Positions 6,066-26,486 of a stretch of 58,030 nt of DNA are shown piece by piece; within the stretch, counting starts at the first letter, position 1; each line of letters begins with the position of its first letter. A program made the position numbers and the translations under genes. The DNA is from Desulfovirgula sp. (GTDB lineage Bacteria; Bacillota; Desulfotomaculia; Desulfotomaculales; Desulfovirgulaceae): the NCBI GenBank assembly GCA_020725525.1, contig DYEX01000028.1:1-58030 (forward strand). The letters run 5' to 3'. The notes under the pieces are model-generated. The model was given only the letters and a program-made list of their open reading frames with translations. It was not told where the DNA came from and did no database searches.

Positions 6066-7293
6066 AATTCCCAACCAGAAGACCCGGCACCTTCTTCAAC
6101 CGGGTAATGAACTCCCCTATACCTGTCAAGTCCCCCCGGGCCGGGGGCAGGCGACCGAAGAGGTAGTCCGGGTCGATGTTCAAATTGCGCAATTGTACCA
6201 TCTGAACCCCGGTCTCCTGGATAAAGGCCAGGAGGCTTTTCATCTCTTCCTCGCGGTCGGTCAGGCCGGGCAGAACCAGGAGGTTCAGGGAAACAAACAC
6301 CCCCGCCTGCCGGGCCAGCACGATGGAGCGGCGCACATCATGGAGATCGTAATTATGGGGCCGGTGGTAGGCGCGATAAATATCAGGTCTGGCGCTGATT
6401 AAACTCACCCTTATGGAGTCAACCCCACTGGCGATGATTTTTTCCATGCCGGCAGTATGGCCGGCATTGGTGTTTATATTGATGGTCCCCCGGGATACCA
6501 GCCGCCGCACCCGGGCAATGGCAGTGGCTATAGTATCGGCAGCCAGTGCCGGTTCTCCCTCGCATCCCTGACCGAAGCTGACTATAGCCCCCGGAGCGGT
6601 CCTTAAGTGTTCCTCCATTACCTCCACCACTGCTTCTACCGGAGGGACAACAGAGATCCGGCTCTGGGGAGAAGGACAGCATTCAGCGGGCTGTTTGGAG
6701 ATACACCCCAGGCAGCGGGCATTGCAACCGGGGGAAACGGGAATCCCCCCCTCCCAGCGGCGGTAAAAAATATTCTGGGCGGTAAAACAGGAGTACTCCC
6801 GGGCGCAACGGGCCAGCTGAGCCAGGATGGGATTTTGGGGGTGGCGGTCCAGGCGCCCGGAAATCAACTGCGCCAGCTCCGGGGTGTTATAATGCCGGGG
6901 GTCCCAGCGATGGGGGTTATCTGTTTGCCGCGCGGCCACCCACATCCCATCCTTATGCCAGGCCACCGCTGCATAGCCGAAAAGGGGCAGGGGCTTTTCC
7001 CCTGCCGGCCGGCGGTAGGCCGGTAAAAGGGTGCGGGTGTAGCCCTGGGGTAAAAGGGCGGCCACGGCAAAGACGGGAACCTCCCGCACCCTTTCCACCA
7101 GAACAAAATTACCCCGCCGGTCGAGCCCCACCGGGCTCCCGGCCGGAATGAGCACCAGGGAAGCCCCCCGGGGCAGGGGCATCATATCGGAAGGGGTTAC
7201 TTCCACAAACCGGTCCCCCGTCCGTCCAACCGCGGCCAGCCCGGGATGATCGTAAAAACGACCCCCGGTATCGGCATAAACCAGACAATACAC
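6049..7293 (-). CDS. Radical SAM protein of unknown substrate
   Basis: About 414 residues. The N-terminal 175 residues form a separate domain that I do not recognise, opening YCLVYADTGGRFYDHP. A radical SAM domain follows, with the CX3CX2C cluster CNARCLGC at 190-197, FGQGCEGEP as the GGE-like SAM-contact segment, ININTNAGH and VSLNLLVLPGLTDR. It should bind a [4Fe-4S] cluster and cleave SAM. Extra cysteines near the cluster (CISKQPAECCP) are notable. An upstream ATG at 7365 would add a hydrophobic 24-residue leader; GTG 7293 or TTG 7299 fits the domain boundary better. No partner gene indicates the substrate. Its 3' end overlaps the convergent diguanylate cyclase gene. Confidence 0.8.
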   Translation of the reverse strand: MYCLVYADTGGRFYDHPGLAAVGRTGDRFVEVTPSDMMPLPRGASLVLIPAGSPVGLDRRGNFVLVERVREVPVFAVAALLPQGYTRTLLPAYRRPAGEKPLPLFGYAAVAWHKDGMWVAARQTDNPHRWDPRHYNTPELAQLISGRLDRHPQNPILAQLARCAREYSCFTAQNIFYRRWEGGIPVSPGCNARCLGCISKQPAECCPSPQSRISVVPPVEAVVEVMEEHLRTAPGAIVSFGQGCEGEPALAADTIATAIARVRRLVSRGTININTNAGHTAGMEKIIASGVDSIRVSLISARPDIYRAYHRPHNYDLHDVRRSIVLARQAGVFVSLNLLVLPGLTDREEEMKSLLAFIQETGVQMVQLRNLNIDPDYLFGRLPPARGDLTGIGEFITRLKKVPGLLVGNFTREV

Positions 7294-8469: not shown

Positions 8470-9786
8470 TCACTGGCCTTCGGGGGTAATATCCCGGCGC
8501 ACATCGGGGGGCCTGTCGGGGGGAACCACCGGACCGCTCTTGCGGGCAGTGCGGAAGAGGCGCAGGAGCTCTTCGTTGGTTTTGCTTTTTTTCATGCGCT
8601 CGGTAAGCATCTCCATGGCCTCCCAGGGAGCCATACCCGCGGTGGCCTTGCGGAAAAACCAGATCCACTCCAGTTCATCCCGGGACAACAGCAGTTCTTC
8701 CTTGCGCGTGCCGGAACGCTGCACATCAATGGCCGGGAACAGGCGCCGTTCCGCCAGGCGGCGGTCCAAAATCAGCTCCATATTGCCTGTACCCTTGAAC
8801 TCTTCAAAGATCACGTCATCCATCCGGCTGCCGGTTTCAATGAGGGCGGTGGCCAGGATGGTCAGGCTGCCCCCTTCCTCCAGATTGCGGGCGGCACCGA
8901 AGAAACGCTTGGGCTTGTGCAACGCTGCCGGGTCGACGCCTCCGGATAGAGTGCGCCCGCTGGGGGGGATCACCAGGTTGTGCGCCCGGGCCAGACGGGT
9001 AATGCTGTCCAGCAAGATGACCACATCCTGCTTGTGTTCCACCAGGCGCTTGGCCCGTTCCAATACCATTTCCGCCACTTTTACATGGTTATCCGGCGGC
9101 TCATCAAAGGTAGAACTGACCACTTCCCCGTCCACCGAGCGCTCGATATCGGTAACCTCTTCCGGCCTTTCGTCAATGAGGAGGACTATTAAGTAAATTT
9201 CCGGATGATTTTTGGTGATGCTGTTGGCAATTTCCTTCAATAGCATGGTCTTACCCGCCTTGGGCGGGGCGACAATCAAACCCCGCTGTCCTTTGCCGAT
9301 GGGGGCAACCAGGTCGATAATCCTGGTGGCAATCCGGTCAGGCTGGGTCTCCAGGCGGATCCGCTCCTGGGGGTAGAGGGGGGTAAGGCCGTCGAAATGC
9401 AATCTCTCGGCGGCTTTCTCCGGATCGACGCCGTTAACCTGTTCCACACGCAACAGGGCATAGTAGCGCTCGTTTTCCTTGGGCCCGCGCACCTGGCCGG
9501 CAACCAGATCGCCGGTACGCAGGTCAAACCGGCGGATCTGCGAGGAGGATACGTAGATGTCATCGTGGCTGGGCAGGTACTGGAAGGGTCGCAGGAAACC
9601 GTAGCCGTCGGGGAGGATTTCCAGTACCCCTTGAGTGTAAATGAGACCGTTTTTTTCCGTCTGGGCTTTGATGATTTCAAAGATCAGCTCCCGCTTGCGC
9701 AGGCGGGAGTACCCGGTGAGTTCCAGCTCCCGGGCTATTTTGTACAACTCCGGCATGGTTTTGCCTTCTAATTCCGAATAATTCAC
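8470..9786 (-). CDS. rho: Transcription termination factor Rho
   Basis: Hexameric RNA-dependent ATPase that releases RNA polymerase. In the 438-residue reading, a Rho_N SAP-like segment is at 5-45 ([16 protein letters not shown]), the RNA-binding cold-shock fold at about 50-125 ([14 protein letters not shown]), Walker A APPKAGKT at 173-180 and Walker [15 protein letters not shown] near 255. The R-loop/Q-loop region around [21 protein letters not shown] is intact. The open frame begins at TTG 9807, but AAAGGA is placed for GTG 9786. Rho lies among carbon and cell-wall genes with its own upstream gap. Confidence 0.97.
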
Positions 9787-19580: not shown

Positions 19581-19641
19581 TTGTGGTGACAAAACAAAGG
19601 TTTGTATGTAGTGACAAATTGTGCGAATTATAACAAGCTCC
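19581..19641 (-). promoter_or_regulatory. Promoter-operator candidate with GTGACAA repeats
   Basis: Plus-strand text shows GTGGTGACAAAA (from 19584) and GTAGTGACAAATTGTGC (19608-19624). On the minus strand a TATAAT box (19629-19634) sits just upstream of the latter, so the site would lie at the start of transcription toward the 57-residue protein, a position typical for a repressor. No good -35 is visible. The rest of the gap 19598-19829 holds nothing else clear. Confidence 0.45.
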
Positions 19642-19829
19642 ATATAATCGCCCTGTTGATATTATTATAGTCCGTAATTTTCAGAAATCAACAGGTAGAT
19701 GACAAAAAGATTGAATTCACAAACACAAAATGCCTTGTCCACCCCTAGTTTAACATCTATAATAATATTTGAGAAATAAACGGCAGGGTGGCCAGCCACG
19801 CCCCCAGGAGAATCCGGGTAAAATAAAAA

Positions 19830-19860
19830 ACAGGCGGTGCCTGTTGAAGGCGCCGCCTGT
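19830..19860 (-). terminator. Terminator of the TauE/SafE transcript
   Basis: ACAGGCGG / CCGCCTGT stem with an internal 15-base loop and, on the minus strand, TTTTTTATTTT directly after. Strong intrinsic terminator 75 bases beyond the stop at 19935. Confidence 0.85.
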
Positions 19861-19934
19861 TGAAAGCGGTTTTTCACCGGACCCCTGCCGGTGCAGCCGT
19901 CCACACTGCAGGGGGTTTCCGTAACAGCCGGGTA

Positions 19935-20642
19935 TCAGGCCTCTGCCTTTTCCCCGTGGGCGGAGGCCGAAATGCCCAGGCCCTCGAAGATGAACATCAT
20001 GGCAAAGCCGTACCACATGGTATAGATGACGTAAAAGGCGAGCATGAAGGTGGTCATGCCTGCTTTATCGGCTACCCTGGCCGCCTGGATCCCTTCAAAG
20101 TTATATGCGGGCTCCAGGGCCTTGGTCATCACCGATCCCGCAAAGGACATCTCGCTGGCGCGGGCTTCCAGTTTGTACTGCTTCTGGAGGGCGTTGAAAA
20201 GGTTCCACCAGTAATAGATCGCTTCCCGCGACTCCAGGCCGTAACGACTTTTGATCTGATCGCCTTTGTTATTAAACTCCGCATCCGCATCGGTCAGCGC
20301 CGCGCTGGCTACCTTACCCAGATCCCCGCTGACCATTAGTTTTTGCCCCTGTGCCACCACTGTGGCACCGGCGGCGGTAAAGAGCCCCGTCATTTTCTCT
20401 GCTTCTTCTTTATCTCCGGCATCCAGGGTTACCTGGAAACTTTGCCCTTCAAACTTTTTCGCCTTGCTCATGATACCGGGAATGTAGTAGGTTGAACCCT
20501 TGGTTAACTCGTTAAACAGGTCGTCGGCATAGCCGATGACCGTTCTGCCGTTCATTACCGGGCTCATCAATACTGCCAGAATCACGAAGAAGGAAATGAG
20601 CAGCACCATTCCGATAAAGAATTCCCTTTTCCGTATAATCAT
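19935..20642 (-). CDS. Two-span membrane protein with extracytoplasmic domain, TauE partner
   Basis: About 235 residues. A first membrane helix (FFIGMVLLISFFVILAVLM) is followed by about 160 residues outside, rich in Lys/Glu/Ala, then a second helix (TTFMLAFYVIYTMWYGFAMMFIFEG). I do not recognise a named domain. The external part includes VIGYADDLFNELTKGSTYYIPG and a segment predicted to be alpha/beta. It is 32 bases downstream of the TauE/SafE gene and before its terminator, so it is in the same operon and may form a complex with the permease. ATG 20642 has GGGGGTGA ahead of it. Confidence 0.65.
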   Translation of the reverse strand: MIIRKREFFIGMVLLISFFVILAVLMSPVMNGRTVIGYADDLFNELTKGSTYYIPGIMSKAKKFEGQSFQVTLDAGDKEEAEKMTGLFTAAGATVVAQGQKLMVSGDLGKVASAALTDADAEFNNKGDQIKSRYGLESREAIYYWWNLFNALQKQYKLEARASEMSFAGSVMTKALEPAYNFEGIQAARVADKAGMTTFMLAFYVIYTMWYGFAMMFIFEGLGISASAHGEKAEA

Positions 20643-20674
20643 ACCGGAATTCACCCCCTTTTTTGCGAACTACC

Positions 20675-21994
20675 TTAGTGCCCCACGCCCGTACCGCCGG
20701 CCGTGAGAGCCTGCCGCTCGGCTTCCCGGATCTTGCCGGCGCCCTTGAAGAACACGGCCAGGATCCACACCGAGAAGATACCTACCAGGGCAAAGAAGAT
20801 CACCGTACCCACACTGTTGATCATGGCCGCCGTGGCCTTGTTCATGCTGATCCAGCCGACCTCGTTCAGCTTGCCCGGCAGGGCGCAGATCCGGTTCACA
20901 AAACCGGCCAGGATGGTCAGGGCGTAGAAGGCTCTGATGGTAATCCCCTTCACCATCCTGGTCACCAGGGCACCCATCTGCACGCCCACCAGCGATCCCA
21001 GGAGCATGCCCATGGCCACGGTGTAAAATACGTAGCCGTAAATGGCATACTGGGTGATGGAGGAGTAGCCGGTGGTAAAGATGATCTGCAGAATGTCGGT
21101 ACCCACAGTGGTAAAGGTGGATACGCCCAGGCCGTAAACCATCATCGGGAAGGTAAGGAACCCGCCGCCCACACCCATGATGGCGGCAACAAAGCCGACG
21201 ATGAAGCCGCAGATGATGATCGGGTACACGGCAATGCTCCGGCCGCCGGGGACAATGTGCTCGTCGAACTTCACCCGGGGCTTCAAGGGAAGGGACTGCA
21301 GCCAGCGGGCAAAATTGGTCGTGGTGTCGGTACCGGATGTCCTGGCACCGCCGGCGGTACCTTTGCGCATGCGGAGCCAGTCGGCCAGGGCGTAGAAGCC
21401 CAGAATGCCCAGCATGAACACGTATACCGCACTGATGAAGGCATCGCTCAAAGCGGGGCTTTTCTGGTAGATGGCCCTGTTCAGCACGCCGCCCACGGAC
21501 GCGCCGGTTACCGAACCCAGGACAAACCACACGGCAATCCAGAAGTTCACGTTACCCATCTTGCGGTGGATGACCGTACCCATGATTGCTTTGGCAAAAA
21601 GGTGGAACTGGTCGGTACCCACGGCCATGATCCCCTTCACCCCGATGCTCATCAGCGCCGGGGTAAGGACGTAGCCGCCGCCTGCACCAATCACGCCGGT
21701 AATCAACCCGGCCATGAAGCCTACAAAGATCGAACCAATAAACATCTCGGTGGTGGCGAAGCTGGGCATGTAGGCCTTGTGCCCGCCCAGGTGCTCGGGC
21801 AGGCCGGCGGCCACGGCCATCTCCATCCCCAGGCCCAAAAGGACGGGGAACAGGGCCACCAGCAACAGCTTCCAGCGCCGGCCCAAAATTACCCGGCTCA
21901 TTTCCAGCTCCCACTGGGCCTGCTTCCTGGACAGGGCGGTCAGGAATTCACCGGCAGCCAGGCCGCCCCCGGCAACCCTTCTAAAAATGCTCAT
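20675..21994 (-). CDS. TauE/SafE-family anion (sulfite/organosulfonate) permease
   Basis: About 439 residues with 8-9 membrane helices. The two TauE/SafE repeats are visible: GFMAGLITGVIGAGGGYVLTPAL near 85-107 and GFIVGFVAAIMGVGGGFLTFPMMV near 255-278. The family exports sulfite or related anions or imports sulfonates. The long soluble N-terminus (about 50 residues) and the loop between repeats are larger than in the minimal family. In a sulfate reducer sulfite or sulfonate traffic is plausible but not proven. AAGGAGGT precedes ATG 21994, favoured over 22024. Upstream lies a GTCACTAC/GTAGTGAC palindrome. Confidence 0.85.
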   Translation of the reverse strand: MSIFRRVAGGGLAAGEFLTALSRKQAQWELEMSRVILGRRWKLLLVALFPVLLGLGMEMAVAAGLPEHLGGHKAYMPSFATTEMFIGSIFVGFMAGLITGVIGAGGGYVLTPALMSIGVKGIMAVGTDQFHLFAKAIMGTVIHRKMGNVNFWIAVWFVLGSVTGASVGGVLNRAIYQKSPALSDAFISAVYVFMLGILGFYALADWLRMRKGTAGGARTSGTDTTTNFARWLQSLPLKPRVKFDEHIVPGGRSIAVYPIIICGFIVGFVAAIMGVGGGFLTFPMMVYGLGVSTFTTVGTDILQIIFTTGYSSITQYAIYGYVFYTVAMGMLLGSLVGVQMGALVTRMVKGITIRAFYALTILAGFVNRICALPGKLNEVGWISMNKATAAMINSVGTVIFFALVGIFSVWILAVFFKGAGKIREAERQALTAGGTGVGH

Positions 21995-22137
21995 AGGTGA
22001 TACCTCCTTAATTAAATCCCCCAAAGTGACTTTTTGACAGCTACACCTGAGTGCACTTGCTCTTTTTCCAGTTTTCCCGGCCCGGTCAGTTATTTTGGAC
22101 CCGTCGCCGTGCCGGCCTTATCACCCCCTTTTCTGCT

Positions 22138-22158
22138 GTCACTACAGCCTGTAGTGAC
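22138..22158. promoter_or_regulatory. Palindromic operator candidate upstream of TauE
   Basis: GTCACTAC (22138-22145), AGCCT spacer, GTAGTGAC (22151-22158): perfect 8-bp dyad about 145 bases before the TauE start. The right half continues as GTAGTGACAAC, which is matched inversely at 24660-24670. The form suits a dimeric repressor; a transposon end is the alternative. Confidence 0.55.
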
Positions 22159-22243
22159 AACTCTGGTCGATAACAGCCCTGAAGCACAGAACCTCAGCCT
22201 TAAGCGATTAGTGAAATGTTTCACATGCTTGGGTAATTTTTTT

Positions 22244-22268
22244 GTCACTACCCCGTGGTGGTAGTGAC
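22244..22268. promoter_or_regulatory. Second GTCACTAC/GTAGTGAC dyad at the end of the CBS gene
   Basis: GTCACTAC (22244-22251) and GTAGTGAC (22261-22268) separated by 9 bases. The dyad overlaps the last codons and stop of the CBS gene. A GTGAAATGTTTCAC palindrome lies 20 bases away at 22211-22224. Confidence 0.5.
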
Positions 22269-22814
22269 CCTGGCCTTCCGGCGGAATTGGTCGGCAAAGA
22301 TGACCTTGCTTTTCGGTCCATTGCCGGCACCTTCCAGCTCCCGTATCATTTCCGTAAAAATTTCTTTAATTCCCACCATACCCACCAGCCGGTCCTCCTG
22401 CCAGACAGGCAACGCTTCCTGCCCGCTGCCGGCAATGATGTGTGCGGCCTTAATGATGGTGTCCTGGGCTTTCAACTGGCGTGGCAGTGGCGCCATGATT
22501 TCTTTAACCGCTCGTTCGGCCAGGGCCGCGCAACGCTCGTGGAAATCACCCGCTATCACCACGGGCTCTTTCCAGTCGGGGTTGATGGTCCAGCCGCCGT
22601 AGGTGGCTCTTTTGAACATCACCGGATCCAGGGCCCGCATTACTTCTTTCAATCCGACCATCCCTGCTACTTTATCATCTTCCATGACCAGTACCACCTG
22701 GCAGCCCTGCCGGGCTCTGGCCAGGGCGGTTACCGCTTCTTTAACCGTACAGTCAGCGGGCACCGTGGCAAATCCCATGATCGGTACCATGATGTCCCCA
22801 ACCCTCTTTTCCAT
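22248..22814 (-). CDS. Two-CBS-domain protein
   Basis: About 188 residues with two CBS motifs: VGDIMVPIMGFATVPADCTVKEAV to VAGMVGLKEVM (about 4-65) and VKEIMAPLPRQLKAQDTIIKAA to LVGMVGIKEIFTEMI (about 108-170). CBS pairs bind adenine nucleotides and act as energy sensors. There is no fused enzyme or transporter, so it likely regulates a partner in trans. ATG 22814 has GGGAGGAGG in front. It lies between the TauE gene and the transposase-like gene, 37 bases after the latter. The C-terminal tail is basic (FRRKARVTTTTG). Confidence 0.85.
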   Translation of the reverse strand: MEKRVGDIMVPIMGFATVPADCTVKEAVTALARARQGCQVVLVMEDDKVAGMVGLKEVMRALDPVMFKRATYGGWTINPDWKEPVVIAGDFHERCAALAERAVKEIMAPLPRQLKAQDTIIKAAHIIAGSGQEALPVWQEDRLVGMVGIKEIFTEMIRELEGAGNGPKSKVIFADQFRRKARVTTTTG

Positions 22815-22851
22815 TGGTCTACCTCCTCCCATCAGGTGGTTGGCGCCGGGC

Positions 22852-24504
22852 TCAAACTACAACCGCCCTGGGGTTTTGCACCCCGATGGCGCGCAGGATC
22901 TCTTCCTGGGTTTTTTCTATGCTCGTCACCGACTTCATTTCCACGTCGTCCACCCGGTTGATGGCTACCTTCACTTCCTCCAGCAGTTCCAGGGCCTGGC
23001 GGGAGCTTAAGGAAAGACCGGCACGACGGAGCAACCCCTCCAGAGTTTTTTCCAGCATGGCGGCCAGCACGCACACAAAAATGCTGGCGGAAAGATTGCG
23101 CTCGCGATAAAATTCCTTTGGTCTGGCCTCGAAACTCCTGATTTCTTTAAAGGACTCCCCCAGTTGCCCGAGGCGTGTGTAGGCCAGCACCAGTTCCCGG
23201 CCGTCCATCAAGGTGGTGTTGGTTTCCAGCAGGAAGGATCCTGCCGTTTTTTCCTCCCGGGCAATTACTTCCTCCCGGCGGCGCCAGGTCAGTTCCCCGG
23301 TGGCCTCACTGTAGTGCCAGTCAAAATAGCGGCGGCAGTATTTGTCTTTCAAAATCGCAGCGCCTCTGGAGATGGCCCTTTTGCCGAACCGGTAGTCGGA
23401 CGCAGCAACCTTTTGCAGCCTGCGTAATTCTTCCTCTACGGCATCCAGACGCTCCGCCAGGGCAATCACCTTTTCCTTTGCCACCGCCGGACTGTAGCAC
23501 ACCAGGAACCGCACCCCCCCTTCCGTGACTTCTTTGTACCAGAGATCCCCGTCGACTTCTTTAAACTCCGCCCTGTTCTCCGTCAATTCCCGCTCACACA
23601 ACCGCAGTTCCCGTTCCGACTGGACCTTGCGGCGGACCAGGTACTGGTAACCATGGGACATCAGTACCTCCAGGTGGGTACCGGCCACCAGCCGGCGGTC
23701 ACCCACAAAGATACACTGCTGTGTACCGTGCTCGGCCTGCAGGTAGTGCATAATTTCCCGGAAATCGCCCTCGTCGGGTACCTCCTGCAAAATGCGGTGG
23801 CCAAAGGGCATGCCCTCGTAGCTGACCAGAATGCCCAGGTACACCACCTGCTCTTCCAGTGGCGCTTCTAAAATATACCGGCCATAGGGTGAATGACTAA
23901 ACTCACTGCGGGGAGCCGGTTCGACTGTGGCAGTGGTTAACAGGCAAAAAGTGTTCTCCCGGCTCACGCGGGTAATGGTGGACAGCCTCTGGAAAATTTC
24001 TTTTTCCAGCCTTTCTTTGACGCCGGCCACGCTGTCCAGCGCCCGGTAAAAATGGTGGTCTAAAAACTCCTTGCCCTGCACCTCCGGGAAGTACAGGCAC
24101 CGGTACCAGTCGCTGATGGCCTGCTTATTGGGGGGCTTGATGATCTGGTTGATGGCCATCAGCTCCAGCAACAGGGCGGTGTCCGGATCGTACCTTTCAC
24201 CGGAAAAAGCGGCCTCCACGGCCCCGCCTATATCCAGCAACTCCCATATCCGGTGAATGGCCAGAACCTCGCCGTAGCGCAGAACCTTCTTTGCTTCGAT
24301 GTTTGCCGGCCGGCGGGAGAGACCGCATATCCGGGCCAGACCGTCAATGAGGCCCTCTACCTTTTCCGGAGTCAGGTTCTCCAGGTTGCCCAGGTTGGCG
24401 ATTACCCTTTGCTTAACCTTGTTCCCTTCCCGGTAGTTTTCAATCAGTTTCAGGTAGGTGTACTCTTTTCCCCCACTGCGGCTGGTAACTTTACGGAAAA
24501 ACAC
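22852..24504 (-). CDS. IS1634-like transposase homologue lacking catalytic residues
   Basis: Intact 550-residue protein with the layout of IS1634/IS4-type DDE transposases: N-terminal YTYLKLIENYREGNKVKQRVIANLGN (typical), a central RNase H-like fold and the C-terminal RPKEFYRERNLSASIFVCVLAAML region. Compared with what I know of the family, the first catalytic Asp (usual YDVTT) is replaced by CLLTT (L188). The second is kept (VGDRR, D269). The Glu of the LWQVERAF-like motif is Gly (LGQLGESF, G449). The RIRAH motif also lost its His, and the conserved FPGN segment is gone. This pattern suggests loss of transposition but retained selection for the protein, i.e. a domesticated gene. The start is GTG 24504 behind GGGGGTGA. 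It is followed by the CBS gene. Confidence 0.75.
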   Translation of the reverse strand: MFFRKVTSRSGGKEYTYLKLIENYREGNKVKQRVIANLGNLENLTPEKVEGLIDGLARICGLSRRPANIEAKKVLRYGEVLAIHRIWELLDIGGAVEAAFSGERYDPDTALLLELMAINQIIKPPNKQAISDWYRCLYFPEVQGKEFLDHHFYRALDSVAGVKERLEKEIFQRLSTITRVSRENTFCLLTTATVEPAPRSEFSHSPYGRYILEAPLEEQVVYLGILVSYEGMPFGHRILQEVPDEGDFREIMHYLQAEHGTQQCIFVGDRRLVAGTHLEVLMSHGYQYLVRRKVQSERELRLCERELTENRAEFKEVDGDLWYKEVTEGGVRFLVCYSPAVAKEKVIALAERLDAVEEELRRLQKVAASDYRFGKRAISRGAAILKDKYCRRYFDWHYSEATGELTWRRREEVIAREEKTAGSFLLETNTTLMDGRELVLAYTRLGQLGESFKEIRSFEARPKEFYRERNLSASIFVCVLAAMLEKTLEGLLRRAGLSLSSRQALELLEEVKVAINRVDDVEMKSVTSIEKTQEEILRAIGVQNPRAVVV

Positions 24505-24660
24505 GGGCCCATCACCCCCAAGTCAACCACGGTGTGAAAAGGCGCGACCGGTGCGGTGCCTGCCGGCAATCCTGAAAGTCAGCTGACTGTAATCCCCGCC
24601 CCAAAACCCGACCACCGGTAGAGAGCAGGTAATATGGACCGTTCGGCAACAGGGCGCATG

Positions 24661-24670
24661 TTGTCACTAC
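24661..24670 (-). promoter_or_regulatory. GTAGTGACAA site in the leader of the transposase-like gene
   Basis: TTGTCACTAC on the plus strand; with the preceding G it is the exact inverse of GTAGTGACAAC at 22151-22161. It is either the outer terminal repeat of an old IS or an operator within the 5' leader. No direct target duplication flanks the pair (AGCCT versus ATAAC). Confidence 0.5.
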
Positions 24671-24863
24671 ATAACGGGGTCTCTTTTCAAGAATGTTACG
24701 TTGTTCACATGCTCCACTTATCCCTTTTTTAGCATCCATCTGGGAACAGCCAGAACCCTCTTCTTAACTGGTTTTTCACCACGTCTGTTCACTACAAAAT
24801 TGTCCGGCCATCACAGGTTGTGCACTTGTTCACATTCCCGTCTCTGTACCCTCGTTTTTTTCA

Positions 24864-24892
24864 AGTATAGCACAACACTCAAGATTGTGCAA
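24864..24892 (-). promoter_or_regulatory. Promoter and dyad upstream of the transposase-like gene
   Basis: On the minus strand TTGCAC (-35), 17-base spacer, TATACT (-10). A dyad GCACAA-N9-TTGTGC (24870-24890) covers the spacer. This predicts a leader of about 350 bases; that stretch (24505-24863) also has three GTGAACA words (near 24710, 24790, 24830) and another TTGTGC (24818), but no gene I can recognise. Confidence 0.6.
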
Positions 24893-24968
24893 TAATTCAC
24901 GTTGTTATTTTATAAAATAAAAATTTTCTGACATTGACTCCTGTGGAAAAGGTTGATAACTTAAGATT

Positions 24969-26486
24969 TTACCAGACTCCCAGCACGTGCCACCAGAAAC
25001 CGCCAAGAAAGGTAACGGTAAGTACCAGGGAGATGAGAAAAAGAACGCCACCGGCCTTTAAAAAATCCTGTGCCTGCAAAAAACCGGGACCGTAAACGAT
25101 GGCGTTGGCAGGGGTGGCAATCACCAGCAGGTAGGCAAAGGCCGAAGCCAGGGAAGTGGCCACGCCAATGACCAGGGGTGAGGTCTGGGACAGCTCGGCC
25201 ACCTTTAGAAAGATCGGACCGAGAACGGCCACCGTGGGACCGTCGGCCATGGTATTGGTCACCAGGGCGGTGATCACGGCGGTAACTGCCAGCAGGGAAA
25301 CGCCCTCGGTTACCTCGGCGGCAGCGGCCAGACGTAGAAGCTGCCCGGCCAGCCAGGAAGCGGCCCCGGTGGTAATGAGCATCTTGCCCATGGAAATGGC
25401 CCCGGCGTAAAGCAAAACTACTCCCCACTGGGTTTTTTGTTGCAGGTAGCTCCAATCGATCAGGCGCAGGACTGCCGCCAGGAGAATGCCCACCATGGCA
25501 ATGTTGCCCACCCCAAGGCGGTGGCCTGCCAAAATCCAGCCGACCACCACGGCCAGAAAAATGGCCAGGGCCATCCGGGCCTGGTTGGTCATGGGACCGT
25601 CGGCCTCCATCTCCTCCCTGATGGCCTGGATTGCCCCGGCCAGGTCTGAAATCTCCGGGGAAAAGAGATTTAACAACCAGTAAGTGACGATGGGGATCAT
25701 GATCAGGGTAAAAGGCATGACCATAAGCATCCACTGGCCGTAGCCCACATTGATACCCAGGCTGTTTAAGAGGCCCAGCATCAGGGCATTGCGGGCGCCC
25801 CCCGATGGTGCAGAGACACCACCAATGATCACGCCGTAAGAAATGGAAAGCATGATCAGCTTGGCCAAATTGGGCACCTTTTTGTAGCCACCGCTCAGGG
25901 AAACAATACCCACCCCGATGGGCAGCATGATCATCACTGCGGCGTGCTCCGTAATGAACCCGGCGCTGATGGCACAAAAGGCCACAATGCCCAGGATCAC
26001 TCTCTCAATGCGGGTACCGCACAGTTTGAGCATAAAAAGGGCCACCCGGTTGTGGATATTGTATTTCATCAGCATGGCGCCCATCATCAGCACGCCCATG
26101 ATGAAAACCACGGCATCGTCCATAAAGGTGCGGGGAGCCTCTCTAAAGCTGGCGATGCCGGCGAAAACCTGGTAGGAGCCGATAATCATGGCGGTCATGG
26201 GCAGGGGCACCGCTTCGGTCAGAAAACAGACGATGACGAAAGCCCACAGGCCCAGGGCATACTTTCCCTGCACCGTAAGACCATGGGGGGTGGGCAACAG
26301 GCAGATGACGGCCATTAAAAACAGCGCCAGCAGAAGCCACTTTCGCTCCCTCAAAAACGTCTTTAACTGCCCCAGGGGTGCATGGAAACGGTCCCGCCCA
26401 TCCCCGTCGTCCAGGGGTTCAAAGCCCGGTGCCGTCCTCTCCTTCTTTCGATATTCATTTAGCTTTAAAACCTTTTGCTTGCCCAT
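24969..26486 (-). CDS. SLC13/DASS-family anion:sodium symporter
   Basis: 505 residues: a soluble N-terminus of about 45, then around 11-12 membrane helices. Family features are TEAVPLPMTAMIIGSYQ, AFCAISAGFITEHAAVMIMLPIG, a first binding loop GGVSAPSGGARNALML and a second ALVTNTMADGPTVAVLGPI. Members carry dicarboxylates or sulfate with Na+. The usual SNT/SNTxxT loops are changed here (APSGGARN and VTNTMADGP), so the substrate cannot be read. In a sulfate reducer sulfate uptake is an attractive guess. It stands alone between iorB and the transposase-like gene and reads toward the latter; no strong terminator is seen at its end. Confidence 0.85.
   Translation of the reverse strand: MGKQKVLKLNEYRKKERTAPGFEPLDDGDGRDRFHAPLGQLKTFLRERKWLLLALFLMAVICLLPTPHGLTVQGKYALGLWAFVIVCFLTEAVPLPMTAMIIGSYQVFAGIASFREAPRTFMDDAVVFIMGVLMMGAMLMKYNIHNRVALFMLKLCGTRIERVILGIVAFCAISAGFITEHAAVMIMLPIGVGIVSLSGGYKKVPNLAKLIMLSISYGVIIGGVSAPSGGARNALMLGLLNSLGINVGYGQWMLMVMPFTLIMIPIVTYWLLNLFSPEISDLAGAIQAIREEMEADGPMTNQARMALAIFLAVVVGWILAGHRLGVGNIAMVGILLAAVLRLIDWSYLQQKTQWGVVLLYAGAISMGKMLITTGAASWLAGQLLRLAAAAEVTEGVSLLAVTAVITALVTNTMADGPTVAVLGPIFLKVAELSQTSPLVIGVATSLASAFAYLLVIATPANAIVYGPGFLQAQDFLKAGGVLFLISLVLTVTFLGGFWWHVLGVW

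Follow-up and report, generated by a model that had tools for sequence, protein, structure and literature searches.

A domesticated, catalytically dead IS1634-type transposase and a probable anion-transport regulon in Desulfotomaculum-type sulfate reducers

The window analysed here, a stretch of 58,030 nucleotides from Desulfovirgula sp. (contig DYEX01000028.1), contains a transposase-like open reading frame at 22852-24504 on the minus strand. The frame begins with a GTG codon and encodes 550 amino acids with zero stops. A first-pass annotation of this DNA had described it as uninterrupted; the two-CBS and TauE neighbours named there are also present, at 22248-22832 and 20675-22024, respectively. 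The features of the locus are as follows.

22852-24504, minus strand: 550-aa protein of family F0, a catalytically dead, domesticated transposase of the IS1634 type
24322-24504, minus strand: N-terminal domain (residues 1-61), best conserved of the whole protein, candidate DNA-binding domain from conservation and predicted structure
23941-23943, minus strand: codon 188 (Leu), the first catalytic Asp in active relatives, by alignment
23698-23700, minus strand: codon 269 (Asp), second catalytic position with the Asp retained, by alignment
23158-23160, minus strand: codon 449 (Gly), the catalytic Glu in active relatives, by alignment
24885-24900, minus strand: operator-like site GTGAATTATTGCACAA, in which TTGCAC at 24887-24892 is the -35 box
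24864-24869, minus strand: -10 box TATACT, 17 bp past the -35 box
24818-24833, minus strand: second, weaker operator-like copy GTGAACAAGTGCACAA, from motif matches
24786-24795, minus strand: half-site word GTAGTGAACA, read off the sequence
24661-24670, minus strand: half-site word GTAGTGACAA, from a word search
22248-22832, minus strand: two-CBS-domain protein, same family in 25 of 32 loci
22242-22251, minus strand: a further copy of GTAGTGACAA, from a word search
22209-22226, no strand assigned: palindrome 5' of TauE with the core GTGAAACATTTCAC, from motif matches
22136-22160, no strand assigned: two opposed half-site words 5' of TauE, given as TTGTCACTAC and GTAGTGACAG when the minus strand is read
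20675-22024, minus strand: TauE/SafE-family permease (Pfam 2e-36), same family in 21 of 32 loci
19935-20654, minus strand: 239-aa TauE partner protein of unknown family, after TauE, in 18 of 32 loci
19583-19617, plus strand: GTGGTGACAA and GTAGTGACAA before a small ORF further downstream, from a word search
24969-26486, minus strand: sodium:anion symporter of the DASS family, on the upstream side of the transposase-like gene; family found at 18 of 32 loci

The NCBIfam model of the IS1634 transposase (NF033559), which represents an IS4-related DDE group, matches residues 30-542 of the protein with an E value of 6e-76 and a score of 256 bits, the cut-off of the model being 100 bits. The match is thus nearly full length, and the protein is as long as the transposases of that family. 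A Pfam search of the 550-aa protein gave no match above the cut-off. A structure model built from 9 sequences (mean pLDDT 70) is nearest to the Tn5 transposase, with a Z score of 13.0; the match covers 316 residues and begins at residue 81. The Tn5 structures 1muh and 1b7e (Protein Data Bank) are the closest solved folds found (Z scores of 13.0 and 10.2). Unlike Tn5 transposase, the protein has an extra N-terminal domain, and residues 1-75 lie outside the match. This domain is related to that of mobile IS1634 members. Modelled alone, it consists of three strands and a helix (pLDDT 77). The top two rows of a Foldseek search with it are integrase arm-binding domains at E values of about 0.2, a weak resemblance between predicted and known folds that may serve as a lead only.

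In an alignment with DDE-intact IS1634 transposases, the Asp of their [WY]DTT motif falls on Leu188 (Cys187-Leu188), the Glu of RVERAF falls on Gly449, and the second catalytic Asp corresponds to Asp269, which is kept. The FPGN segment has been replaced (VFPGNTAD has become ILQEVPDE), and the protein reads NLSAS where the active enzymes have the His of RVRGH/RVRAH. The first-pass annotation had located the dismantled site at exactly these places (187-188, 449, FPGN and the RIRAH His). The first Asp and the Glu are absent from all 34 members of the family described below, which have Leu, Arg, His, Trp, Asn, Tyr or Phe at the former position and Gly, Arg, Ala, Ser, Gln or Lys at the latter. Among the aligned IS1634 relatives, 32 of 34 have the Asp and 32 of 34 the Glu; the rows that lack one are probably fragments or misaligned. 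An alignment placing the three acidic residues elsewhere in the protein was looked for, and none restores them. A shifted alignment with the Glu at Glu450 was rejected: an indel would be required, conservation is lacking at that residue, and the first Asp would still be missing. Catalysis has been lost while the frame has stayed intact.

Stop-free orthologues (E up to 1e-60), one in each genome, were found in 32 of the 113 genomes of the class. They represent 14 genera and have 35-89% sequence identity. Thirty of them are full length and two are shorter, with 463 aa in genome G008 and 489 aa in G071. Two diverged members (G078 and G079), about 30-36% identical, were missed by the protein search and reached through the motif scan; their promoters have the same layout as those of the other members. 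The resulting 34 sequences form a single clade with a support of 100/100 and a long stem. Across the 32 orthologues, residues 1-50 are the best-conserved part. Within Desulfofundulus, the N-terminal domain hardly varies, with few replacement changes in the first 62 codons, and dN/dS, a check that the first-pass annotation had proposed, is 0.10-0.17, which indicates purifying selection. The G008 protein has a very long branch (1.29; locus L046), matches the family well in residues 1-350 alone and is preceded by an intact promoter site; it is possibly shedding the former catalytic half.

Near-identical copies at many genomic sites were looked for, and the DNA of the gene proved to be single copy in the 3.24-Mb genome. 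A comparison of its flanks for terminal inverted repeats found no inverted pair of 16 bp below 3 mismatches. The mobile IS1634s of the genus are 26-28% identical to the 550-aa protein. Genome G002, where IS1634 is multi-copy, has 12 further matches, and ACTCAAGTTTGAAACTTT-type ends are clear in five near-identical copies of that genome. Plasmid matches to the protein are ordinary Alicyclobacillus IS1634s (29% identity), and no phage match was found. The NCBIfam name, IS1634 transposase, would suit an IS copy that died recently, or is dying, and is still free of stops. The probability of this is negligible, given 34 orthologues in one clade with one copy per genome, the dN/dS values, a dead active site that all members share, conserved synteny and the lack of convincing terminal inverted repeats; orthologues, selection and synteny rule out a decaying copy. 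The gene is a domesticated (exapted) transposase: it is immobile, single copy and under purifying selection, and has lost catalysis. Domestication had been suggested by the first-pass annotation and is borne out by the single copy, the dead site, the purifying selection and the synteny, which is conserved over 32 loci of Desulfotomaculum-type genomes. The best reading of the sequences is that the ancestor appears to have lost transposition once and that inheritance has since been mainly vertical. Mobile IS1634s differ from the domesticated family in all of these respects: no member of the latter has the first Asp and the Glu, and its genes are present once per genome, appear to be inherited mainly vertically, have conserved neighbours and lack recognisable terminal repeats.

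The neighbourhood survey covered up to 20 kb of sequence at each of the 32 orthologues. The recurrent families are the CBS protein (25 loci), the TauE/SafE permease (21), an AMP-ligase-like protein (20), the DASS symporter and the 239-aa TauE partner (18 each), HdrA/B/C-like proteins (16-17) and a second anion transporter of the CitMHS family (9); the AMP-ligase-like and Hdr-like names were assigned from sequence alone. The gene order varies by lineage, but the set of neighbours persists. Three distant genomes additionally have a histidine kinase, a response regulator and a small YezD-like protein in the cluster. As to other DNA-binding candidates in the core block, Pfam detects no DNA-binding domain in the CBS, TauE and DASS genes.

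The upstream regions of the orthologues have the sequence GTGAAWTATTGCACAA in common, which is found with up to 3 mismatches at the gene's own promoter in 28 of the 32. In nearly all of these 28, TTGCAC of this site is the -35 box and is followed after exactly 17 bp by a TATAWT-like -10 box. When no word was chosen beforehand, GTGAAATATTGC was found in 8 genera, compared to 3 at most in shuffled sequences. A recognisable site is lacking at the gene's own promoter in G018, G028 and G071, and the G021 promoter is cut by a contig end. All 15 exact matches to the site in the class stand just 5' of the transposase-like gene. If one mismatch is tolerated, 25 of the 32 genomes that encode the protein have the site, against 8 of the 81 that do not (p = 3e-12, an optimistic value because related genomes are treated as independent). 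G078 and G079 are two of the eight apparent exceptions; when they are counted in, the site is found in 27 of 34 genomes with the gene and in 6 of 79 without (p = 4e-14, optimistic for the same reason). The strongest regulatory evidence is this palindrome covering the -35 box; the first-pass annotation mentioned neither it nor its overlap with the known Rex operator.

The first-pass annotation had instead pointed to IS-end-like words repeated in front of the transport genes. The enrichment is real, because GTAGTGACAA occurs exactly only 6 times in the 3.24-Mb genome and four of these copies lie within 19608-24670, a clustering of about 6e-8 for any window of such size. With one mismatch there are 7 copies in the window, of which 6 are in the transport block, and none of 100 shuffles had as many. 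The placement has to be corrected, however: the words precede the transposase-like gene, occupy the CBS-TauE interval and recur further downstream at about 19.6 kb, and the best-conserved site is the longer GTGAAWTATTGCACAA at 24885-24900.

The half-site TAGTGA(C/A) resembles TAGTGCCA, which is found before mobile IS1634 genes, and GTAGTGACAA near the transposase-like gene closely resembles the front-end words of IS1634. In the mobile IS1634s of the genus, and in related ones that belong to other families of the same phylum, T[AT]GTGCCA stands at a near-constant distance of 64-93 bp before the transposase start, and T[AT]GTG[CG]CA precedes the transposase gene in several types of mobile IS1634. 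In a wider IS1634 set, some groups have GTAGTGGCAA or TAGTGCCACG, and no TAGTGCCA words were seen in the more distant groups. The earlier suggestion that the sites before the transport genes are ancestral end sequences is upheld as far as their likeness to IS1634 front-end words is concerned; the likeness supports, without proving, that the words may derive from transposon ends.

Common ancestry and the related front-end word might also mean that the dead transposase is kept as a trans-acting repressor of mobile IS1634s, which occur in several of the genomes, in the manner of the Tn5 inhibitor and with the transport neighbours being incidental. The Tn5 inhibitor, too, derives from a transposase and does not carry out transposition. 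Unlike the domesticated protein, it is a product of the transposon and controls transposition. A repressor of mobile elements is highly improbable here, because the transport genes recur across 32 rearranged loci and carry sites, the identity to the mobile elements is merely 26-28%, and the operator differs from the IS word.

A palindrome with at most one mismatch is present 5' of TauE in 18 of 24 regions from genomes with the protein and in 4 of 26 from genomes without it (p = 4e-5), and TAGTGA[AC] in 19 of 24 and 5 of 26, respectively (p = 5e-5); these p-values, too, count related genomes as independent. Likewise, GTAGTGA was found 5' of TauE in 10 genera with the protein and 2 without, GTAGTGAC in 8 and 1, and TGGTGAAATA in 5 and none. 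The palindrome often reads TAGTGAAATATTTCAC, which is an inverted pair of the TAGTGA half-site; therefore one protein could read both words. There is thus a conserved candidate operator at the gene's own and at target promoters, and it co-occurs with the protein. A natural control is found in G007, a genome of the window's own family, which has a close TauE (70%; loci L184 and L219) that lacks a good palindrome, and in which no transposase-derived gene was found.

The palindromes could instead belong to Rex, the NADH/NAD+ repressor, in which case the domesticated protein would be a Rex target with some other role. Rex is a known repressor with the operator TTGTGAAW4TTCACAA (PMC2883068), and GTGAAATATTTCAC fits the core of this operator. 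Rex is encoded in 95 of 113 genomes, and the location of the site over the -35 box is that expected of a repressor. TTGTGAA-N4-TTCAC is found in 7 of 24 TauE regions. Rex could bind some of the TauE palindromes. However, Rex is present in nearly all genomes and the site is almost confined to those with the transposase-like protein, so Rex leaves the tracking of the protein by the site unexplained. Desulfofundulus has no exact Rex box of either known type, nor was one found at the transposase-like gene or TauE. The promoter site does not conform to the Rex operator TTGTGAA-N4-TTCACAA with its TT/AA arms: TT precedes GTGA in 4 of 28 promoter sites and the TT arm is missing in 24, and all 28 have a G in the right arm where Rex wants T, although this G could be kept by the -35 box. 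Furthermore, the palindrome and GTAGTGAC, which is no Rex word, have a half-site in common, and both are enriched 5' of TauE solely where the protein occurs. The two systems thus have similar palindrome cores, but the proteins are unrelated and the flanks, half-site and distribution differ. Rex as the sole binder is disfavoured, and the Rex explanation as a whole is unlikely. The neighbours of exact Rex boxes included no clear classical Rex targets. In G059 and G061, both without the transposase-like protein, an exact TTGTGAA-N4-TTCACAA lies over a -35 box near position 1501 of loci L260 and L261, with TATAAT about 17 bp further on, and adjoins a threonine-synthase-like gene; these boxes are possibly true Rex targets.

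The next-best site in the window's genome (one mismatch) is located before a YezD-like gene on contig C188, at 9415-9430 of locus L124 (G000:C188:3000-13149). This locus contains a TauE-like permease, another permease-like protein, a kinase, a receiver-length gene and the YezD-like gene, as well as two more partial site matches. In other species the same gene families sit inside the transposase-like cluster, and the C188 locus is likely to be part of the regulon. The response regulator of C188 was considered as a DNA-binding candidate and, judging by its length, is an improbable one, as its 121 aa would be taken up by a receiver. Elsewhere, sites precede unlinked TauE-partner operons (G022, G030, G031 and G038), YezD/two-component genes (G001), CBS and DASS genes (G020, G022 and G024), a TctA transporter (G021) and a carbonic-anhydrase-like gene (G020 and G031). 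In G021 the transporter frame, TctA plus TctB-like (L157:2902-5044), has its site about 30 bp upstream and lies beside a LysR-like gene. The carbonic-anhydrase-like protein has 180 aa and an upstream site in two genera (L159:3176-3721 and L161:2514-3053); the L161 copy matches Pro_CA just above the cut-off. Several motif matches lie before off-theme genes or inside coding sequence, and several of the remaining ones, inside coding sequence in G023 and G038, look like chance.

The domesticated IS1634-type (DDE) transposase is probably an autoregulated DNA-binding transcription factor whose regulon, in the Desulfotomaculum-type (Gram-positive) sulfate reducers, serves the transport of anions/sulfur compounds. 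The N-terminal domain, presumably the end-recognition domain, and the folded core appear to have been retained, and binding would occur through the former. The protein most likely binds TAGTGA(A/C) half-sites, either single, as in GTAGTGACAA, or paired, as in TAGTGAAATATTTCAC and GTGAAWTATTGCACAA. An occupied site at its own promoter would cover the -35 box and so should block RNA polymerase, resulting in autorepression. Similar sites should control the TauE operon, the DASS symporter, the CBS protein and the YezD/two-component genes. In sulfate reducers, the candidates for sulfate transport include DASS and TSUP proteins (PMC5840216). The substrates of the transporters could be sulfate, sulfite, thiosulfate or other anions. 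Sulfite as the substrate and a CBS protein that senses the energy state, both put forward in the first-pass annotation, are conjectural. A role in DNA architecture or repair with no control of transcription would account for the retention of the whole transposase core beyond the binding domain. It would not account for promoter sites, their fixed spacing to the -10 box at the protein's own gene and the single theme of the genes concerned, and has a very slim chance of being correct. Returning to the transcription factor, we give an even chance to a more specific history, in which a DDE transposase was converted once to a master regulator of sulfate/anion transport, keeping its end-recognition domain, while operators evolved from the end words as these built up both at its own gene and before unlinked transport operons; a mobile element and its ends would thereby have become a metabolic regulon.

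Transposase-derived transcription factors are well known in eukaryotes, and FHY3/FAR1 are such regulators, domesticated from DDE-type transposases. ALP1/ALP2 (PMC7282668) and CSB-PGBD3 (PMC3459987) are also domesticated DDE-type transposases with a host regulatory role. All of these differ from the bacterial metabolic regulon proposed here in being eukaryotic and in belonging to other transposon families. In bacteria, the described transposon-to-regulator route found in the literature is that of the RNA-guided TldR proteins, which PMC13418256, citing Wiegand 2024, presents as nuclease-dead, TnpB-derived transcription factors. As characterized there, they resemble the present family in that a transposon-encoded enzyme has lost catalysis, has been domesticated and acts on adjoining non-transposon genes. 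However, TldR is RNA-guided and TnpB-derived, whereas the 550-aa protein matched IS1634, a DDE transposase, and its sites look like operators read by a protein. Extracts of a 2022 review of prokaryotic mobile-element recruitment (PMC8987985) describe transcription factors of the phage and antitoxin types and do not mention a DDE transposase under this heading. No described bacterial case of a DDE transposase turned regulator was found among open-licence papers, which is weak evidence.

The family is rich in species and its operators are conserved, so it lends itself to testing by which steps the binding of transposon ends turned into the control of genes. The transporters of sulfate reducers have been catalogued already (PMC5840216), and the protein is a candidate regulator for their sulfate/sulfur-anion transport. 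Annotation by family models would mislabel such host regulators as 'IS1634 transposase'. True mobile IS1634 remnants occur in the window's genome at G000:C67:180-1379 and 6490-6981 (L024, L038 and L039), and one of the remnants on this contig has two internal TGA stops, as expected of decaying copies. In G120 (L183), a mobile IS1634 appears to lie at or in a CRISPR-like array, whose repeat GTTTGTAGGGTGCCTATGAGGAATCGAAAC is found upstream of the IS1634 gene.
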